A stretch of DNA of 64,000 nt from Candidatus Saccharimonadota bacterium. Its GTDB lineage: Bacteria > Patescibacteriota > Saccharimonadia > Saccharimonadales > Saccharimonadaceae. Shown one piece after another: positions 3,548-45,939 of this stretch (positions are counted from its first letter, which is position 1; every line of letters starts with the position of its first letter). The stretch lies in assembly GCA_017433855.1 (NCBI GenBank), contig JAFRGM010000003.1, positions 1 to 64,000 of the forward strand, given 5' to 3'. The position numbers and the translations under genes were made by a program. The notes below the pieces were generated by a model, which worked only from the letters and a program-made list of their open reading frames with translations, did no database searches and was not told the origin of the DNA.

Positions 3548-4900
3548 ATGAGCAAATTAGAAGATATTGTAAGTTTATGTAAGCGCCGTGGGTTCATTTT
3601 TCCAGGCAGTGATGTTTATGGTGGCATGGCCGGCACATGGGACTTTGGCCCGCTTGGCACCATGCTAAAGAAAAATCTCATGGACGCTTGGTGGAACTAT
3701 TTTGTCGAAAAACGCGATGATATATACGGTGTCGACGCCGCCATTATCATGAATCCTAAAACTTGGGTAGCCTCTGGGCACGTTGCCACTTTTGCTGATC
3801 CACTCGTAGAGTGCAAAGAATGTAAATCTCGCTTCCGCGCCGACAAAATTGCCGACGGCATTTCCGAATCAGTCACCACCGATGAGTTTATTGCTACTCA
3901 CACCAAATGCCCAGTCTGCGGTAAAGAAAATTGGGGGCCAATCCGCAAATTCAATATGATGTTTTCTACTCATGTCGGTGCAGTTTTGCCAGAAGACACC
4001 CAGGATAACCCAGAGCTTGCCGCAAAGAACGTTGCTTATTTGCGCCCAGAAACCGCCCAGGGTATCTTCACTAACTACAAAAACGTTATTGATACTATTT
4101 ACCCAAGTCTACCATTTGGCTTAGCTCAGCAAGGTAAGGCTTTTCGCAACGAAATCAGCCCTCGTGATTTTATTCTGCGCGATCGCGAATGTTCTCAAAT
4201 GGAAATCGAGTATTTCGTCGCTCCTGCTACCTGGGAAGAAAATTTCGAAAAAATGCGCGCCGCCCAGCATGACTTTCTTGAAAACATCATCGGCCTTAAC
4301 CCAAATCACATTCATGAGCTAGAAGTTAGCGCCGCAGATCGCGCTCACTATTCTAAACGCACGATTGACTTTATGTTTGACTACCCAAACGGCGAAGAAG
4401 AGCTCATGGGGCTTGCCTATCGCACAGATTTTGACCTCACTAATATTGAGCGTGAGTCTGGTAAGTCTATGGCCTACCGAGATAAAATCACCGGCGAAAC
4501 ATTCATCCCTCACGTTATTGAGCCATCTATTGGTGTAGAGCGCATATTCCTCGCCGTTCTTTCTACTGCCTACACTGAAGACGAAGTTGATGGCAGCGCG
4601 CGCATAGTTTTAAAGCTCCCATCCAACCTAGCTCCATACAAGTTCTGCGTGTCACCTTTGCTCAAAAATAAACCCGAGCTAGTCGCTAAGGCACGCGCAG
4701 TCTATGACCAACTACGTCAAAAATACACTTTCGTAACTTGGGATGATTCCGGCAATATCGGCAAACGCTATCGCAAACAAGATGAAATCGGCACGCCAAA
4801 ATGCATAGTCATCGACTTTGATACACTGACAGACGATACTGTCACCGTACGCGATCGTGACACCGCCGAGCAAGTAAGAATCAAAATAGCAGACCTCTAA
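3548..4900 (+). CDS. glyQS: Glycyl-tRNA synthetase, single-chain (alpha2) type
   Basis: A 450-residue class II synthetase that charges tRNA-Gly. It is the homodimeric archaeal/eukaryal-like form rather than the alpha2-beta2 form of many bacteria. The N-terminal region has the RRGFIFPGSDVYGGMAGTWD signature. A CKEC...CPVC pair, probably zinc-binding, lies at about residues 96-123. Motif 2 FRNEISPRDFILRDRE is near residue 200, and the C-terminal anticodon-binding domain ends in WDDSGNIGKRYRKQDEIGTP. It is one of the few housekeeping genes on the plus strand and is followed directly by a strong terminator. Confidence 0.97.
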   Translation: MSKLEDIVSLCKRRGFIFPGSDVYGGMAGTWDFGPLGTMLKKNLMDAWWNYFVEKRDDIYGVDAAIIMNPKTWVASGHVATFADPLVECKECKSRFRADKIADGISESVTTDEFIATHTKCPVCGKENWGPIRKFNMMFSTHVGAVLPEDTQDNPELAAKNVAYLRPETAQGIFTNYKNVIDTIYPSLPFGLAQQGKAFRNEISPRDFILRDRECSQMEIEYFVAPATWEENFEKMRAAQHDFLENIIGLNPNHIHELEVSAADRAHYSKRTIDFMFDYPNGEEELMGLAYRTDFDLTNIERESGKSMAYRDKITGETFIPHVIEPSIGVERIFLAVLSTAYTEDEVDGSARIVLKLPSNLAPYKFCVSPLLKNKPELVAKARAVYDQLRQKYTFVTWDDSGNIGKRYRKQDEIGTPKCIVIDFDTLTDDTVTVRDRDTAEQVRIKIADL

Positions 4901-4928
4901 AAATAGCCCCATGAAGGGGCTATTTTTT
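4898..4928. terminator. Bidirectional intrinsic terminator between glyQS and ppa
   Basis: The stem AAATAGCCCC / GGGGCTATTT has a 5-nt loop, with a T-tract on the plus side and an A-tract on the other. It serves the convergent genes glyQS (+) and ppa (-). Confidence 0.9.
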
Positions 4929-10879: not shown

Positions 10880-10907
10880 CAAAAATAGCCCCAAATGGGG
10901 CTATTTT
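10880..10907 (-). terminator. Intrinsic terminator of the tyrS-trm-rpmA operon
   Basis: AAATAGCCCC and GGGGCTATTT arms with a 4-nt loop, followed on the minus strand by a T-tract. Confidence 0.88.
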
Positions 10908-11180
10908 TTAACGAACCTCTACTCTAACGCGAGGTAAACTTTTCCCTGAAAAGTGTGTTTTCTTAGTCTTAACGAACGTAACAACACCATCCTTTGCAGC
11001 ATGAATCGTAAAATTGCGAGACATGTAAGTGCCAGGACCAGCAAGTTTAGTTGCGCCAGTTTGGCGTACGAGCACTTCGCCGTTCTTGACTTTTTGGCCA
11101 CCAAAGCGTTTGACGCCAAGGCGCTGGCCAGCATTGTTATGGACGTTCTTGGCGGTACCGCCAGCTTTTACGTGTGACAT
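10908..11180 (-). CDS. rpmA: 50S ribosomal protein L27
   Basis: 90 residues. It shows the L27 core QRLGVKRFGGQKVKNGEVLVRQTG and a lysine-rich end, and binds 23S rRNA near the peptidyl-transferase centre. The N-terminus (MSHVKAGGTAKN) has no cleavable Firmicutes-type extension. Its start overlaps the methyltransferase stop (TAATG). It is unusual that rpmA is not next to rplU here. Confidence 0.96.
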   Translation of the reverse strand: MSHVKAGGTAKNVHNNAGQRLGVKRFGGQKVKNGEVLVRQTGATKLAGPGTYMSRNFTIHAAKDGVVTFVKTKKTHFSGKSLPRVRVEVR

Positions 11181-16706: not shown

Positions 16707-16738
16707 CAAAAAACAGCCCACATATAGTGGGCTGTTTT
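16707..16738 (-). terminator. Intrinsic terminator of the arc operon
   Basis: AAACAGCCCAC / GTGGGCTGTTT with a 5-nt loop, then a T-run on the minus strand. Confidence 0.88.
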
Positions 16739-30515: not shown

Positions 30516-32420
30516 CTAATCACGCTTCAGCATAACTGTAAAAGCCTCACTAGGAATATCTATTTTTCCAAACCGTTTCATTCGCGCTTTTCCACGTTTC
30601 TGCTTTTCCAGCAATTTAGCTTTTCTATCCCTATCACCAGTATGAATTTTTACCGTCACATCCTTACGGTATGCTCCAATCGTCTCACGCGCAATTATCC
30701 TCGCCCCAATCGCCGCCTGCAAAGCCACCTCGTAATTCTGTCTCGGTATTACTTCTTTCAGTTTTTTTGTCGTTTCTCTACCTATCGCATCCGCCTCTGT
30801 TCTATGACACATTATTGACAGCGCGTCAATTTTATGTCCACCCACCAAGAAATCTACCCTCACCAAATCTTCTGCCCGGTAACCATTTATCTCATAATTA
30901 AATGACGCATACCCGCTCGTTGCCGATTTCAACTGATCATAAAAATCTGTCAACAAATTAGCCATTGGTGCCTCAAAATCAATCACTGCCCTTTCCTCAA
31001 TGTACGACAAATTCGTCTGATGACCACGCTTACTATTGATTAGGTTTAGCACATTGCCAATCATCTGCTTCGGCAAAATTATTTCCCCTTTCACCCATGG
31101 CTCCCGAATCTCCATAATCTCAGACATATCCGGCAAATCGGCCGCGGATTTTATCTCTATCACCTCACCGTTATTCATCACCACTTCGTAATTAGTGCTT
31201 GGATTCGTCACAATCAAATCCAGCTTAAACTCCCGCTCTAACCGCTCCCGAATAATATCCATGTGTAACAACCCCAAAAACCCAATCCGGAGCCCAAAGC
31301 CCAAAACTGGCGAATTCTCAGGTTCATACCGCAAAGCCGAATCCGACAGACTCAATTTTTCAATCGCCTCTTTTAGCTCCTTATATTGGTCGTTAGACAC
31401 TGGGAAAAACCCTGCGTACACAAACGGCAACACTTCCTTGTACCCAGGCAAAGCTTCATTCGCTGGATTCTTCGTCAAAGTTACCGTATCCCCCACTCGC
31501 GCCTCACGCGTAGTCTTTAGGTTCGTTACAATATATCCAATCTGTCCTTCCGACAACTTTTCCCGCGGCGTCATCTTTGGCGTTAAAATACCCACCTCTA
31601 AGGCTTCACCCTTAGTTCCCGCCGCCATCATACCAATCTCCGCTTTTGCCGGTATCTCCCCCTCAAACACTCGCACATACAAAACCACCCCGCGATAATC
31701 ATCAAAGTACGAATCAAAAATCAATGCGCGAGTGCTACCAGGCAAATCCGGTAGATTCCGTTCATTTCGAGCGAGCCCGAGTGAGTCTCTAGAAGCGCCC
31801 CGAGACGAGTCACGGTACTGAAATACCGGCGCAGTCTCGGCGGCGTTTCTAGAGGCTTGCCCGGCGCGAAGCGAGCTATGAACGGAGTCTACCGGATCTA
31901 ACTCTATCACCGCATCCAATATTTTATCTACATTATATCCAGTTTTCCCACTCACCTCAATAATTTCATCCCTGCCACAACCAAGCAAATTCATTATCTG
32001 CGCCGCCACCCCCTCCACATCTGCCGCAGGCAAATCAATCTTATTAATTACCGGAATAATCTTTAGATCTTGTTCAATCGCAAGATATACATTGGCTAGA
32101 GTTTGCGCTTGTATACCCTGCGTCGCATCTACTACTAGCACTGCCATTTCCACCGCCTGTAATGACCGACTGACTTCGTACGAAAAATCTACATGCCCCG
32201 GCGTATCAATCAAATTTAAAGTAAAACCTTTCCATTGCATAGTTACCGGCGTCAGTTTTATCGTGATGCCTTTTTCGCGCTCCAGCTCCATCGAGTCTAA
32301 TAGCTGCGCCTTCATCTCCCGCTTTTCTACCGTACCAGTCAGTTCCATCATGCGGTCCGCAATCGTAGACTTTCCGTGGTCAATATGTGCAATTATGCAA
32401 AAATTCCGGTTCTTATCCAT
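30516..32420 (-). CDS. lepA: Elongation factor 4 (LepA) with an in-frame palindromic insertion
   Basis: 634 residues, longer than the usual ~600. The GTPase domain shows AHIDHGKST, DTPGH and NKIDLP, and the C-terminal domain ends IPSEAFTVMLKRD. LepA back-translocates stalled ribosomes. At about residues 175-225, in the linker before ALIFDSYFDDYRG, there is a ~50-codon Arg/Ser/Ala-rich stretch encoded by a 152-bp near-perfect inverted repeat. It follows pnp by 5 bp on the same strand, so the two are probably co-transcribed. Confidence 0.95.
   Translation of the reverse strand: MDKNRNFCIIAHIDHGKSTIADRMMELTGTVEKREMKAQLLDSMELEREKGITIKLTPVTMQWKGFTLNLIDTPGHVDFSYEVSRSLQAVEMAVLVVDATQGIQAQTLANVYLAIEQDLKIIPVINKIDLPAADVEGVAAQIMNLLGCGRDEIIEVSGKTGYNVDKILDAVIELDPVDSVHSSLRAGQASRNAAETAPVFQYRDSSRGASRDSLGLARNERNLPDLPGSTRALIFDSYFDDYRGVVLYVRVFEGEIPAKAEIGMMAAGTKGEALEVGILTPKMTPREKLSEGQIGYIVTNLKTTREARVGDTVTLTKNPANEALPGYKEVLPFVYAGFFPVSNDQYKELKEAIEKLSLSDSALRYEPENSPVLGFGLRIGFLGLLHMDIIRERLEREFKLDLIVTNPSTNYEVVMNNGEVIEIKSAADLPDMSEIMEIREPWVKGEIILPKQMIGNVLNLINSKRGHQTNLSYIEERAVIDFEAPMANLLTDFYDQLKSATSGYASFNYEINGYRAEDLVRVDFLVGGHKIDALSIMCHRTEADAIGRETTKKLKEVIPRQNYEVALQAAIGARIIARETIGAYRKDVTVKIHTGDRDRKAKLLEKQKRGKARMKRFGKIDIPSEAFTVMLKRD
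31746..31897. repeat. Palindromic element inserted in lepA
   Basis: The arms start ATCCGGTAGATTCCGTTCAT and close with the near-perfect complement ending CTACCGGAT. Inner matches include CTCTAGAAGCGCC against its partner and GGTA/TACC around the centre near 31821. The element keeps the lepA frame open. Confidence 0.85.
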
Positions 32421-35516: not shown

Positions 35517-36278
35517 ATGTCTACCGCCAAAATGTGTCCGTTCGTCTTAAGCCTTGACGCCATCATCAACCTCGAAGCTGTTTTTTCCAAACTTTCCACT
35601 GTCTACCGTGCTGCGCCCGACTCCGACCATAAGCAGTTTCGCCCGGAGTTCCACCTTCCCACCCAGTTATTCGTCCATGCCTACGGCGATTCTTCGGTCA
35701 ACAACTACGGCCGCCCCGCCAACCTCGATTTCGTGAACAGGATCCTGGCGGACCACGTTTTCGAGCGCACATCCACCAATGATGGCGACATCTGTTACGG
35801 GCTCAAAAACCCCTTCATCCGTCTCGTTCACGACTCTGCCCATGGCATCGCGCGCGACCCCAGTCTGTATGGCGACCGATTCATCCCCACCCAGCTCGTC
35901 CTCGCCCATGCCGCTCGTTTGGCTAAGTTGGCAGCTAAGGATCAGGCCCCCAGTCAATCGTTCCCCAATCAGCAAGAAACCCTCAACCGGCTGAATGTCG
36001 TCATCGTCACCAGCTTCGGCGCCACTATTAGCGCTGCCCGCGCTGAGGGCTACCAGGTTTGGAATTATACCGAGCCCAAAGCGAGCGACACTGCATTGAG
36101 TCCCTACGAGTTCCTCTTGCTGAAACTTAGCCTCGTGGAATTCGACAACTCTACCGACCCGCCGGTTCCCAAGGTCTACCGTGGCATCTCCCTCAAGAAG
36201 TCTCCCCGCGGCGCCAAAAATGCCCCCGTCCCGCCGCCTTACGCCGAAGAAGCCCCTGGCTGGCCCACCCTCGACTAA
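35517..36278 (+). CDS. Hypothetical protein, GC-rich, strong Shine-Dalgarno
   Basis: 253 residues, soluble, not recognised. It has a His-rich mid region (RLVHDSAHGIARDPSLYGD) and a Pro-rich tail (PVPPPYAEEAPGW). ACAAGGAGG lies 9 nt before ATG, and a hairpin GGCGC/GCGCC sits in the leader at about 35470-35488. GC content is above the neighbours. A good terminator follows. The shared TTTTACAAGGAGG leader motif links it to the gene at 49746-50219. Confidence 0.7.
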   Translation: MSTAKMCPFVLSLDAIINLEAVFSKLSTVYRAAPDSDHKQFRPEFHLPTQLFVHAYGDSSVNNYGRPANLDFVNRILADHVFERTSTNDGDICYGLKNPFIRLVHDSAHGIARDPSLYGDRFIPTQLVLAHAARLAKLAAKDQAPSQSFPNQQETLNRLNVVIVTSFGATISAARAEGYQVWNYTEPKASDTALSPYEFLLLKLSLVEFDNSTDPPVPKVYRGISLKKSPRGAKNAPVPPPYAEEAPGWPTLD

Positions 36279-36337: not shown

Positions 36338-37114
36338 ATGAATCCTGAAGACCAAATTATTCTTATTGATAAACCAGCCGGTATCTCTAGTTTTGGTGTA
36401 GTAGCCAAAATCCGTGGCTATCTACGCGCAAAATACGGTCACAAAGTCAAAGTTGGCCACACTGGTACCCTGGACCCTTTCGCTACTGGTCTTCTCATCA
36501 TTCTCACCGGCAAAAACACCAAAAAATCCGACGAGTTTTTGAAGAAAGACAAAGTTTACGAAGCCACCCTAAACCTCGGCTTTGTTTCCACCACCGGCGA
36601 CCCCGAAGGTGAAATTACGGAATATAAAACAGCGGAAGATGTGCTTCCATGGATTCAAGAATGTCCAAGCGACGGGCCTCCGGAGCCTGGCAAGGCGAGG
36701 ATGAGCGCGCCTCGCCCGTGCCGACGGGCCGAGGCGACGCAGCCCGAGCTGGACGTTATTGAATCCACAATTCAAAGTTTCATCGGCAAAATTAAACAAA
36801 AAGTCCCCACCTTCAGCGCCGTAAAAATCAATGGCGAACGCGCCTACAAGCTCGCTCGAGCCGGCAAAGATTTTGAAACCCCAGAAAGAGAAGTCACCAT
36901 TTATAATATTGAAGTCTTAAACTACAACTACCCAGAGCTCAAAATTCGTTGCCATGTCAGCTCTGGCACCTACATCCGTACTCTCGCCGAAGACATCGGC
37001 AAAAAACTCGGCACTGGCGCCTACCTTACTGCTTTGCGTCGCCTCAAGATTGCCGCTTACGACGTCAAAGACGCCAAGAATCTCACAGATTTCACTTCTT
37101 CTCACCAGAATTAA
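36338..37114 (+). CDS. truB: tRNA pseudouridine-55 synthase with an in-frame insertion
   Basis: 258 residues. Catalytic Asp46 in GHTGTLDPFATGLL; GDPEGEITEYKT, FSAVKINGERAYKLAR and the YIRTLAEDIG block are standard. It makes Psi55 in the T-loop of tRNAs. Between EITEYKT and IESTIQSFIGKI (about residues 98-138) is an Arg/Pro/Cys-rich stretch not expected in the family, encoded by GC-rich inverted-repeat DNA. The -10 lies 6 nt from ATG. Confidence 0.95.
   Translation: MNPEDQIILIDKPAGISSFGVVAKIRGYLRAKYGHKVKVGHTGTLDPFATGLLIILTGKNTKKSDEFLKKDKVYEATLNLGFVSTTGDPEGEITEYKTAEDVLPWIQECPSDGPPEPGKARMSAPRPCRRAEATQPELDVIESTIQSFIGKIKQKVPTFSAVKINGERAYKLARAGKDFETPEREVTIYNIEVLNYNYPELKIRCHVSSGTYIRTLAEDIGKKLGTGAYLTALRRLKIAAYDVKDAKNLTDFTSSHQN
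36662..36754. repeat. GC-rich imperfect palindrome inserted in truB
   Basis: The ends GTCCA and TGGAC are complementary. The centre contains GGCGAGG / CCTCGCC around about 36708, plus two direct copies of GACGGGCC. It replaces a short linker in frame. Confidence 0.65.
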
Positions 37115-39486: not shown

Positions 39487-40605
39487 ATGATTATTAGAGA
39501 AAACATTCCTTTAGCTAGTCTTACCACCATGCGTCTTGGTGGCCCTGCTCGCTATGTCATCGAGATTGAGTCCGAAAGCGACATTGAGCCAGCCTTTGAT
39601 TTTGCACGCTCGCATAATCTTCCATTCTTTATCTTGGGTGGTGGCGCCAACACTATCGCGCACGACGAAGGTTTTAATGGTGTCATCATCAAAAACGCCA
39701 TGCAAAGCATAGAAATTCTAGAGGGCGCAGAAGAGACAAAAGGTCAAAAAGACCCTTTCGAAAGGCCTCTATGGACGGGTGACGGAGCTGGGGAAACCCC
39801 CGCTCGAGCCCAGTCGAGAGTGAGGGAAGCTGCGACGGCAGGACCCGTCCAAATTGCCATCATGGGTGGCACTATTTGGGACGATGCCGTCGCTTTCGCT
39901 TGCGCGCACGGTCTCACCGGCATCGAAGCTTTAAGTAAAATCCCTGGCCTTGCCGGCGCCGCTCCCGTTCAAAATATCGGTGCCTACGGCCAAGATATTT
40001 CCGACACTTTTATTTCCGCCCGCGTTTACGACACTAAAACTCACGAGTTCAAAATACTTTCCGCCACCGATTTTCATTTTTCCTACCGCCATTCTATCAT
40101 GAACACCACCGAGCAAAATCGCTATTTTGTTATTTCCGTCACTTTCAGCCTCCACCACGGTCAAATGTCCCGTCCTTTTTATAATTCTGTCGAATCCTAC
40201 ATCGCAGCACATAACATTACAGATTTTTCCCCAGCCAGTATCCGCCAGATTGTCTCCGACATTCGCGCCGACAAACTCCCCGACCCTACCACAAAACCCA
40301 GTGCCGGTTCATTCTTCAAAAATATCTACCTCACCGAAGAAGAGGCCGCCGTCGCCGAATCTAAAGGATATCCAGTTTATCGTGGCCACGACGGCCTCAA
40401 GATTAACTCCGGTTGGCTTATTGAATCTTGTGGGCTAAAAGGCCAGCTCCTCCACGGTTTTCGCATCAATCCCAAATCTGCCCTCGTCCTCATCAACGAA
40501 TCTGCCACATCCTATAACGACCTCGTCGCAGCCCGCACCGAAATTATCAACCAAGTCAAAGCCAAATTTGGCTACACATTAGAACAGGAGCCCATCGAAT
40601 TATGA
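39487..40605 (+). CDS. murB: UDP-N-acetylenolpyruvoylglucosamine reductase with an in-frame insertion
   Basis: 372 residues; FAD enzyme making UDP-MurNAc for peptidoglycan. GGGANTIAHDEGF, PVQNIGAYGQDISDT, YRHSIM, PSAGSFFKN (active-site Ser) and INSGWLIESCGLKG are present. Residues about 79-121, just before VQIAIMGGTIWDDAV, are an extra 43-codon segment rich in Arg, Gly, Pro and Ala, encoded by hairpin-forming DNA. The -10 lies 6 nt from ATG. Stop/start overlap ATGA with folD. Confidence 0.95.
   Translation: MIIRENIPLASLTTMRLGGPARYVIEIESESDIEPAFDFARSHNLPFFILGGGANTIAHDEGFNGVIIKNAMQSIEILEGAEETKGQKDPFERPLWTGDGAGETPARAQSRVREAATAGPVQIAIMGGTIWDDAVAFACAHGLTGIEALSKIPGLAGAAPVQNIGAYGQDISDTFISARVYDTKTHEFKILSATDFHFSYRHSIMNTTEQNRYFVISVTFSLHHGQMSRPFYNSVESYIAAHNITDFSPASIRQIVSDIRADKLPDPTTKPSAGSFFKNIYLTEEEAAVAESKGYPVYRGHDGLKINSGWLIESCGLKGQLLHGFRINPKSALVLINESATSYNDLVAARTEIINQVKAKFGYTLEQEPIEL
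39721..39850. repeat. Palindromic insertion in murB
   Basis: Two hairpins: GAGGGC...AGGTC-AAAAA-GACC...GGCCTC (39721-39769), and GGACGGGT...CTCGA-6-TCGAG...ACCCGTCC (39773-39850). The extra DNA is 129 bp (43 codons) and keeps the frame. Confidence 0.75.
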
Positions 40606-45905: not shown

Positions 45906-45939
45906 AAAAAACGAGCTGGCGTAAATACCAGCTCGTTTT
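45906..45939 (-). terminator. Terminator of the DUF11 surface-protein gene
   Basis: AAACGAGCTGG / CCAGCTCGTTT with T-runs on both sides, about 25 bp after the stop codon. Confidence 0.88.

Follow-up and report, generated by a model that had tools for sequence, protein, structure and literature searches.

When protein-coding palindromes were first reported, they were regarded as peculiar to Rickettsia; Wolbachia was later found to have them too. The elements known as RPEs are characterized, in the passages cited here, as families of short palindromic repeats that lie between genes or are fused in frame within conserved genes, where the host tolerates them (Ogata 2000/2002; PMC10969869, PMC2229807), and WPEs are presented as in-frame, stop-free palindromic insertions in Wolbachia genes (Ogata 2005, cited in PMC4224334). 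In the mitochondria of Nematomorpha, coding palindromes are perfect inverted repeats with identical arms that have been gained and lost (PMC6649704). REPs are given, in the part of the source cited, as sequences of 20-40 bp that are extragenic by name (PMC3733652), and some of the insertion sequences in the rRNA genes of CPR bacteria encode homing endonucleases (PMC11270868). In the open-access literature, we found no earlier report of protein-coding palindromes in Saccharibacteria.

Our study analysed a 64,000-nucleotide stretch of Saccharibacteria DNA (hereafter the window), in which the murB gene contains an extra segment. With a probability of roughly 85%, judged from sequence comparisons, we consider this insert to be one instance of a short palindromic mobile element of Saccharibacteria, which, when it lies in frame, would be translated into an additional loop of its host protein. 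The closest described kind is the RPE/WPE type, which is alike in anatomy and behaviour; the sequence is not RPE1, whose model (TIGR01045) was not matched over its cut-off in any of 40 genomes, our own included, and no RPE family appeared among the NCBIfam matches of 9 host proteins. As with RPEs, the copies are numerous, fall into several families and occur both between genes and in frame within unrelated conserved protein genes. The differences are that they belong to an unrelated phylum, their nearest named relatives being Saccharibacteria and not Rickettsiales; that the family found in murB, family A, is shorter (80-96 nt); and that its stems stay paired, whereas the repeats of RPEs are said, in the passage cited, to become less identical over time (PMC6649704). 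Locus-specific inverted host flanks are seen in the Saccharibacteria elements. The likeness to WPEs, in-frame insertions without stops in different bacteria, is one of description. Nematomorph palindromes have, on our reading, no shared mobile core, whereas in Saccharibacteria locus-specific arms surround a shared, dispersed one (PMC6649704). The CPR rRNA insertions are likewise intervening sequences in conserved CPR genes, but the Saccharibacteria inserts are short, coding and hairpin-shaped.

The murB gene (39487..40605, forward strand) encodes 372 aa in an intact reading frame, scores 156.7 against TIGR00179 (cut-off 144.5) and gives an AlphaFold2 model with a mean pLDDT of 88, which matches solved MurBs such as 4jay (TM 0.91, on target). 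In an alignment with MurBs from about 80 Saccharibacteria, insert-free relatives are about 330-334 aa long and their ..(M/R)xGI.. runs straight into ..IKIMGGE; by comparison with them, the entire extra segment spans about 42-44 codons (39724..39854, forward strand). It is placed after the strand that ends in ..(K/R)GI(E/T) and before the strand IKIMGGE; by sequence, this corresponds approximately to residues 77-82 of P. aeruginosa MurB, also between two strands. Residues 92-116 of the model, which is confident elsewhere, have pLDDT <50 and are inside a loop linking two strands. Among the 40 MurBs examined, including our own and with insert classes counted by eye, an insert is lacking in 15, while palindromic inserts are found in 23 and other extra sequence in two, all at this position. 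These results bear out two proposals of a first-pass annotation of this DNA: that an ordinary MurB is left once the insert is removed, as the direct joins in insert-free relatives and the score over the TIGR00179 cut-off show; and that in-frame palindromic DNA in conserved genes is tolerated at a surface loop. The second withstands both refuting checks set by that annotation, as insert-free MurBs are common in relatives (15 of 40) and structural mapping places the insert in a beta-hairpin loop, outside the core. The same annotation had described a single element built of two hairpins, and only the second hairpin is the element. Its P1 stem, with arms TGGACGGGT (39772..39780, forward strand) and ACCCGTCCA (39843..39851, forward strand), pairs exactly and folds better than shuffled sequence (z -3.4). 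The other hairpin (TAGAGG...CCTCTA, 39719..39771, forward strand), proposed as GAGG...CCTC, has a 6-bp stem and is no better than chance (z -1.2; 29 of 200 shuffles fold equally well); it is possibly an older insert that has decayed, or no element at all. The insert is thus real, but only its 3' two thirds (39769..39854, forward strand) are the repeat copy, an 86-nt match to the family-A model in sense orientation with 76.7 bits.

The murB copy follows the pattern ACAT-SGRC-GGGTGACG...GGCAG-GACCC-GYCS-AGAG, and the family-A consensus is ACAT-SGRC-GGGTGACG-[P2]-GGGG(G)ACCCCC-[variable hairpin]-GGGGGA-[P2']-GGCAG-GACCC-GYCS-AGAG. A second locus of the same genome matches the murB element with a BLAST E of 8e-17, and the 596-kb genome contains 6 family-A loci by BLAST and 12-13 by covariance model. 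In this genome, the in-frame hosts are murB, ychF, gatA, a DegT-type aminotransferase gene, topA, ileS, leuS and obgE, and copies lie at or near the start of tlyA, miaA, glyA and polA, some of these names having been assigned by reading the sequence. Family-A matches were found in 61 of 116 genomes of the genus, with at most 25 copies per genome; across the class, nearly all matches fall within this genus, with weak ones elsewhere. An ordinary lineage-specific expansion of the MurB loop, with the hairpin as a by-product of composition, would fit a site that is a variable surface loop. Nevertheless, the 80-96 nt sequence recurs at unrelated loci (BLAST E down to that of the second locus), also between genes and in antisense, and the same MurB loop is occupied by palindromic inserts of several families. 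These dispersed copies refute that explanation, to which we assign a practically negligible probability.

Not all copies lie in the middle of genes. In four sequences (L198, L202, L223 in miaA and L225 in polA), the element is at about position 1500 and at a gene start, where it appears to supply the start codon and an N-terminal peptide, as read from the sequence (MTGDGPGGG.. preceding ILGPTGSGKT of MiaA, and MAGDVARG.. preceding PolA). An intergenic family-A copy was also observed just upstream of murB (L016:3696-3775), adjoining a TATAAT-like box, at a site that is empty in L023.

Of 103 distinct family-A copies, 66 lie in frame inside spanning ORFs (at least 150 codons, as the census sorts by ORF length), 42 in sense and 24 in antisense orientation, and among these 66 we saw no frame-breaking or stop-interrupted copy. 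Six further copies with coding sequence on both sides proved on inspection to be gene junctions, and the remaining copies, among them 22 with coding on one side only, adjoin genes or are intergenic by this sorting on ORF length. About four of the six frames of a family-A copy are open, the only systematically closed one being closed by the TGA in GGGTGACG, and the length class 2 mod 3 is found in 42 of 66 coding copies versus 12 of 35 others (p 0.006). Coding copies of this dispersed repeat are open and in frame in both orientations, and essential proteins tolerate them in exposed loops. We propose that it would insert into genes and intergenic DNA alike, that an in-frame copy would be read as an additional loop of the host protein, and that selection would purge frame-breaking insertions; by a simple estimate, the in-gene share is about that expected from random insertion followed by such loss. 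Alternatively, the insert might never reach the protein, being either excised from the RNA or skipped during translation by bypassing, which has been described, according to a secondary mention, for yeast mitochondrial palindromic elements in Magnusiomyces (cited in PMC6649704). Strong mRNA hairpins in essential host genes would suit such a process, but excised or bypassed inserts need be neither in frame nor stop-free, and all 66 in-gene copies are both, with length classes that fit the frame. Since in-gene copies were never seen out of frame or stopped, we infer that they are translated rather than spliced or bypassed, and regard removal as very improbable. Family models are over their cut-offs for most host proteins despite the inserts. 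A mobile palindromic element would thus have spread in frame through essential genes of small-genome Saccharibacteria and is apparently translated.

Empty sites were seen for MurB, TruB and TrmD, and in flank comparisons at 78-88% identity. No obvious direct target duplication was found in these comparisons, whose flanks are at most 88% identical, and the element ends are approximate because this is the value of the best pair of genomes with and without the element. As to its mover, the element could be a MITE or REP of the conventional kind that depends on an enzyme (Y1/RAYT transposase, RT or an unseen DDE enzyme). This would be compatible with the reading as a mobile palindrome, and the short, palindromic, multicopy form with conserved ends (ACAT/AGAG) speaks for it. 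REP/RAYT palindromes are likewise short and have conserved unpaired letters. Against a conventional mover, our search, which covered the Y1 and RT families, found Y1_Tnp (PF01797) in only 2 of 60 genus genomes; it is absent from the other 58, our own and the copy-rich ones tested among the genomes without it. The reverse transcriptase domain PF00078 is missing from our genome (86% complete) and from the copy-rich relatives G004, G074, G082 and G099. A conventional mover of this kind is on balance unlikely in our assessment, and we rejected both a RAYT/REP identity, there being no Y1 transposase in our genome, and a retroelement or group II intron derivative, RT being missing from our genome and the four relatives. 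By inspection of the consensus, the integron attC core sites RYYYAAC/GTTRRRY are absent from the element ends (ACAT..GGGTGACG and GGCAGGACCC..AGAG). Viral carriage was set aside after two exact-pattern scans of IMG/VR returned nothing, a weak test given that the patterns were exact.

Pairing within the stems is maintained while their sequence changes. In 40 family-A copies, 96.5% of stem cells are paired and double changes number 108 versus 30.7 in shuffled data; over 102 copies, stem cells comprise 1482 Watson-Crick, 11 G-U and 14 A-C pairs. Such strong covariation, together with conserved internal-loop letters, is what a functional structured RNA kept for its fold in the mRNA (a riboswitch, ribozyme or regulatory hairpin) would show. 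However, selection on an RNA helix would raise G-U above A-C, which is not seen; the copies stand in either orientation in unrelated genes; and the Rfam covariance models gave no match to the element, even at permissive thresholds. A known structured RNA is rejected on these grounds, and we hold an RNA function in general to be improbable. Because G-U pairs are not enriched, the relevant structure would be a DNA hairpin, single-stranded or cruciform. The pairing could then be kept by selection on a hairpin required for mobility, with no correction by template switching: the loop letters GGGTGACG and GGCAGGACCC hardly change in family A, in contrast to the stems, as in structure-recognising recombination. 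This explanation has to face the fact that pairing in a second family, B, reaches into locus-specific host flanks, which are useless to a shared recogniser, and that the arms follow each species' own codons; we think it plausible but somewhat less than evenly probable. We give about even odds, on comparative sequence evidence, to fold-back template switching as the process by which arms are perfected and, in family B, extended. In this process (quasipalindrome correction), the nascent strand would copy itself and so keep the arms perfect, and family-B arms would extend outward into host sequence. In E. coli, quasipalindromes are known to be made perfect by fold-back template switching (PMC7202029), and template switching has also been proposed for the nematomorph coding palindromes (PMC6649704).

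The first-pass annotation had grouped murB with palindromes in truB and lepA within 8 kb. All three palindromes are upheld, but they belong to different families: truB (36338..37114, forward strand) carries a family-B element (36650..36767, forward strand; outer arms 36650-36670 and 36748-36767; z -7.1 against shuffles) and lepA (30516..32420, reverse strand) a family-C element (31743..31898, reverse strand) with long arms (31880-31898 and 31743-31763) and inner stems, whose region of 177 nt folds as RNA at -90.9 kcal/mol. The neighbouring inserts are consequently hits by three element families. In family B, locus-specific arms of roughly 12-30 nt surround a shared core, and arm complementarity is 14.5 to the locus's own other flank versus 6.3 to other loci. 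Mismatches in these outer arms (14 G-T versus 5 A-C, p 0.06) hint at RNA-level or DNA-wobble tolerance. Extended flank complementarity in family A is above the 5% control in only 9 of 54 loci, so arm growth is unequal among families. In our own TruB, the native EITEY is kept and the extra WIQECPS is an inverted copy of ..DVIEST, the 5' arm (36650-36670) being an inverted copy of the host 3' flank that encodes ..VIEST. In TrmD, the 5' flank of the gene is native (ARxFA codons, found in empty sites too), and the ARxFA codons of the species itself recur in inverted form on the 3' side in 8 of the 13 filled genes tested and in none of the empty sites. Paired stem changes without a G-U excess, taken with the inverted flanks of family B, suggest palindrome copying at the DNA level, and the inverted host flanks plausibly match, from their sequence, the products of fold-back template switching.

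Two accounts of the arms were rejected. First, a pre-existing palindromic target as their source fails in TrmD, whose empty sites lack the inverted arm. Second, a fixed polarity, in which the flank copy is on the element's 5' side (from TruB and one LepA), fails because the TrmD copy is on the gene's 3' side regardless of element orientation. TruB is less clear on the first point: the short-linker TruB of L048, without an insert, retains a short loop enclosed by a perfect inverted repeat of 13 bp, which we read as a scar that an element may have left when it was lost. In the TruB linker of L058, several partial insertion rounds (KIQSHLISDTGR repeated) were observed, each with an inverted copy of the same flank.

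The same loops are occupied more than once. At the MurB site, family A is found in two reading frames among relatives, and in L036 (10230-10330) a family-D core is enclosed by family-A outer stems, which from the sequence would represent nesting or core swapping. In TruB, many families fill the linker that follows GDPEGEI, in about 30 of 44 relative species altogether and with family A in three of them; the LepA site is occupied by family B in L066 and L040; and the TrmD site is filled in 14 cases and short in 14. TruB, TrmD and LepA are hot spots akin to that of MurB, and the several families and frames at these four sites indicate that exposed loops are hit repeatedly and that elements nest or swap. 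A bolder possibility, which we rate as rather doubtful, is that the palindromes extend themselves: after insertion, fold-back would invert one host flank onto the other side, so that they grow, swap cores and remain perfect within essential genes with no dedicated transposase, and the exposed loops of TruB, TrmD, LepA, MnmA and MurB would be repeatedly rewritten. If this were true, replication fold-back would continually supply a reduced genome with new protein segments.

The abundance of coding palindromes in distant epibionts with tiny genomes suggests that they arise repeatedly where genomes are reduced. With insertions in the hundreds, empty sites and loops that have been hit more than once, they lend themselves to comparative study, and the paired stem changes without a G-U excess, together with the inverted flanks, give a way to test how these palindromes form and are maintained, a question since 2000. 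For annotation, loops of 25-45 residues that had no explanation in the housekeeping proteins of Saccharibacteria can now be identified as derived from such elements. It is important to note that a scan of the window for perfect arms of at least 12 nt returned only four intergenic terminator-like hairpins; the arms of the coding palindromes are imperfect at this length, so their detection needs family models. The perfect inverted repeats at 4899-4927, 10881-10908, 16710-16738 and 45908-45939 are flanked by A and T runs and are probably terminators that act both ways. An ORF of 253 aa (35517-36278, forward strand) lies upstream of truB. The strand bias is very strong throughout the window (1-64000), with a GC skew below zero, at about -0.1 to -0.4, in each 2-kb block.
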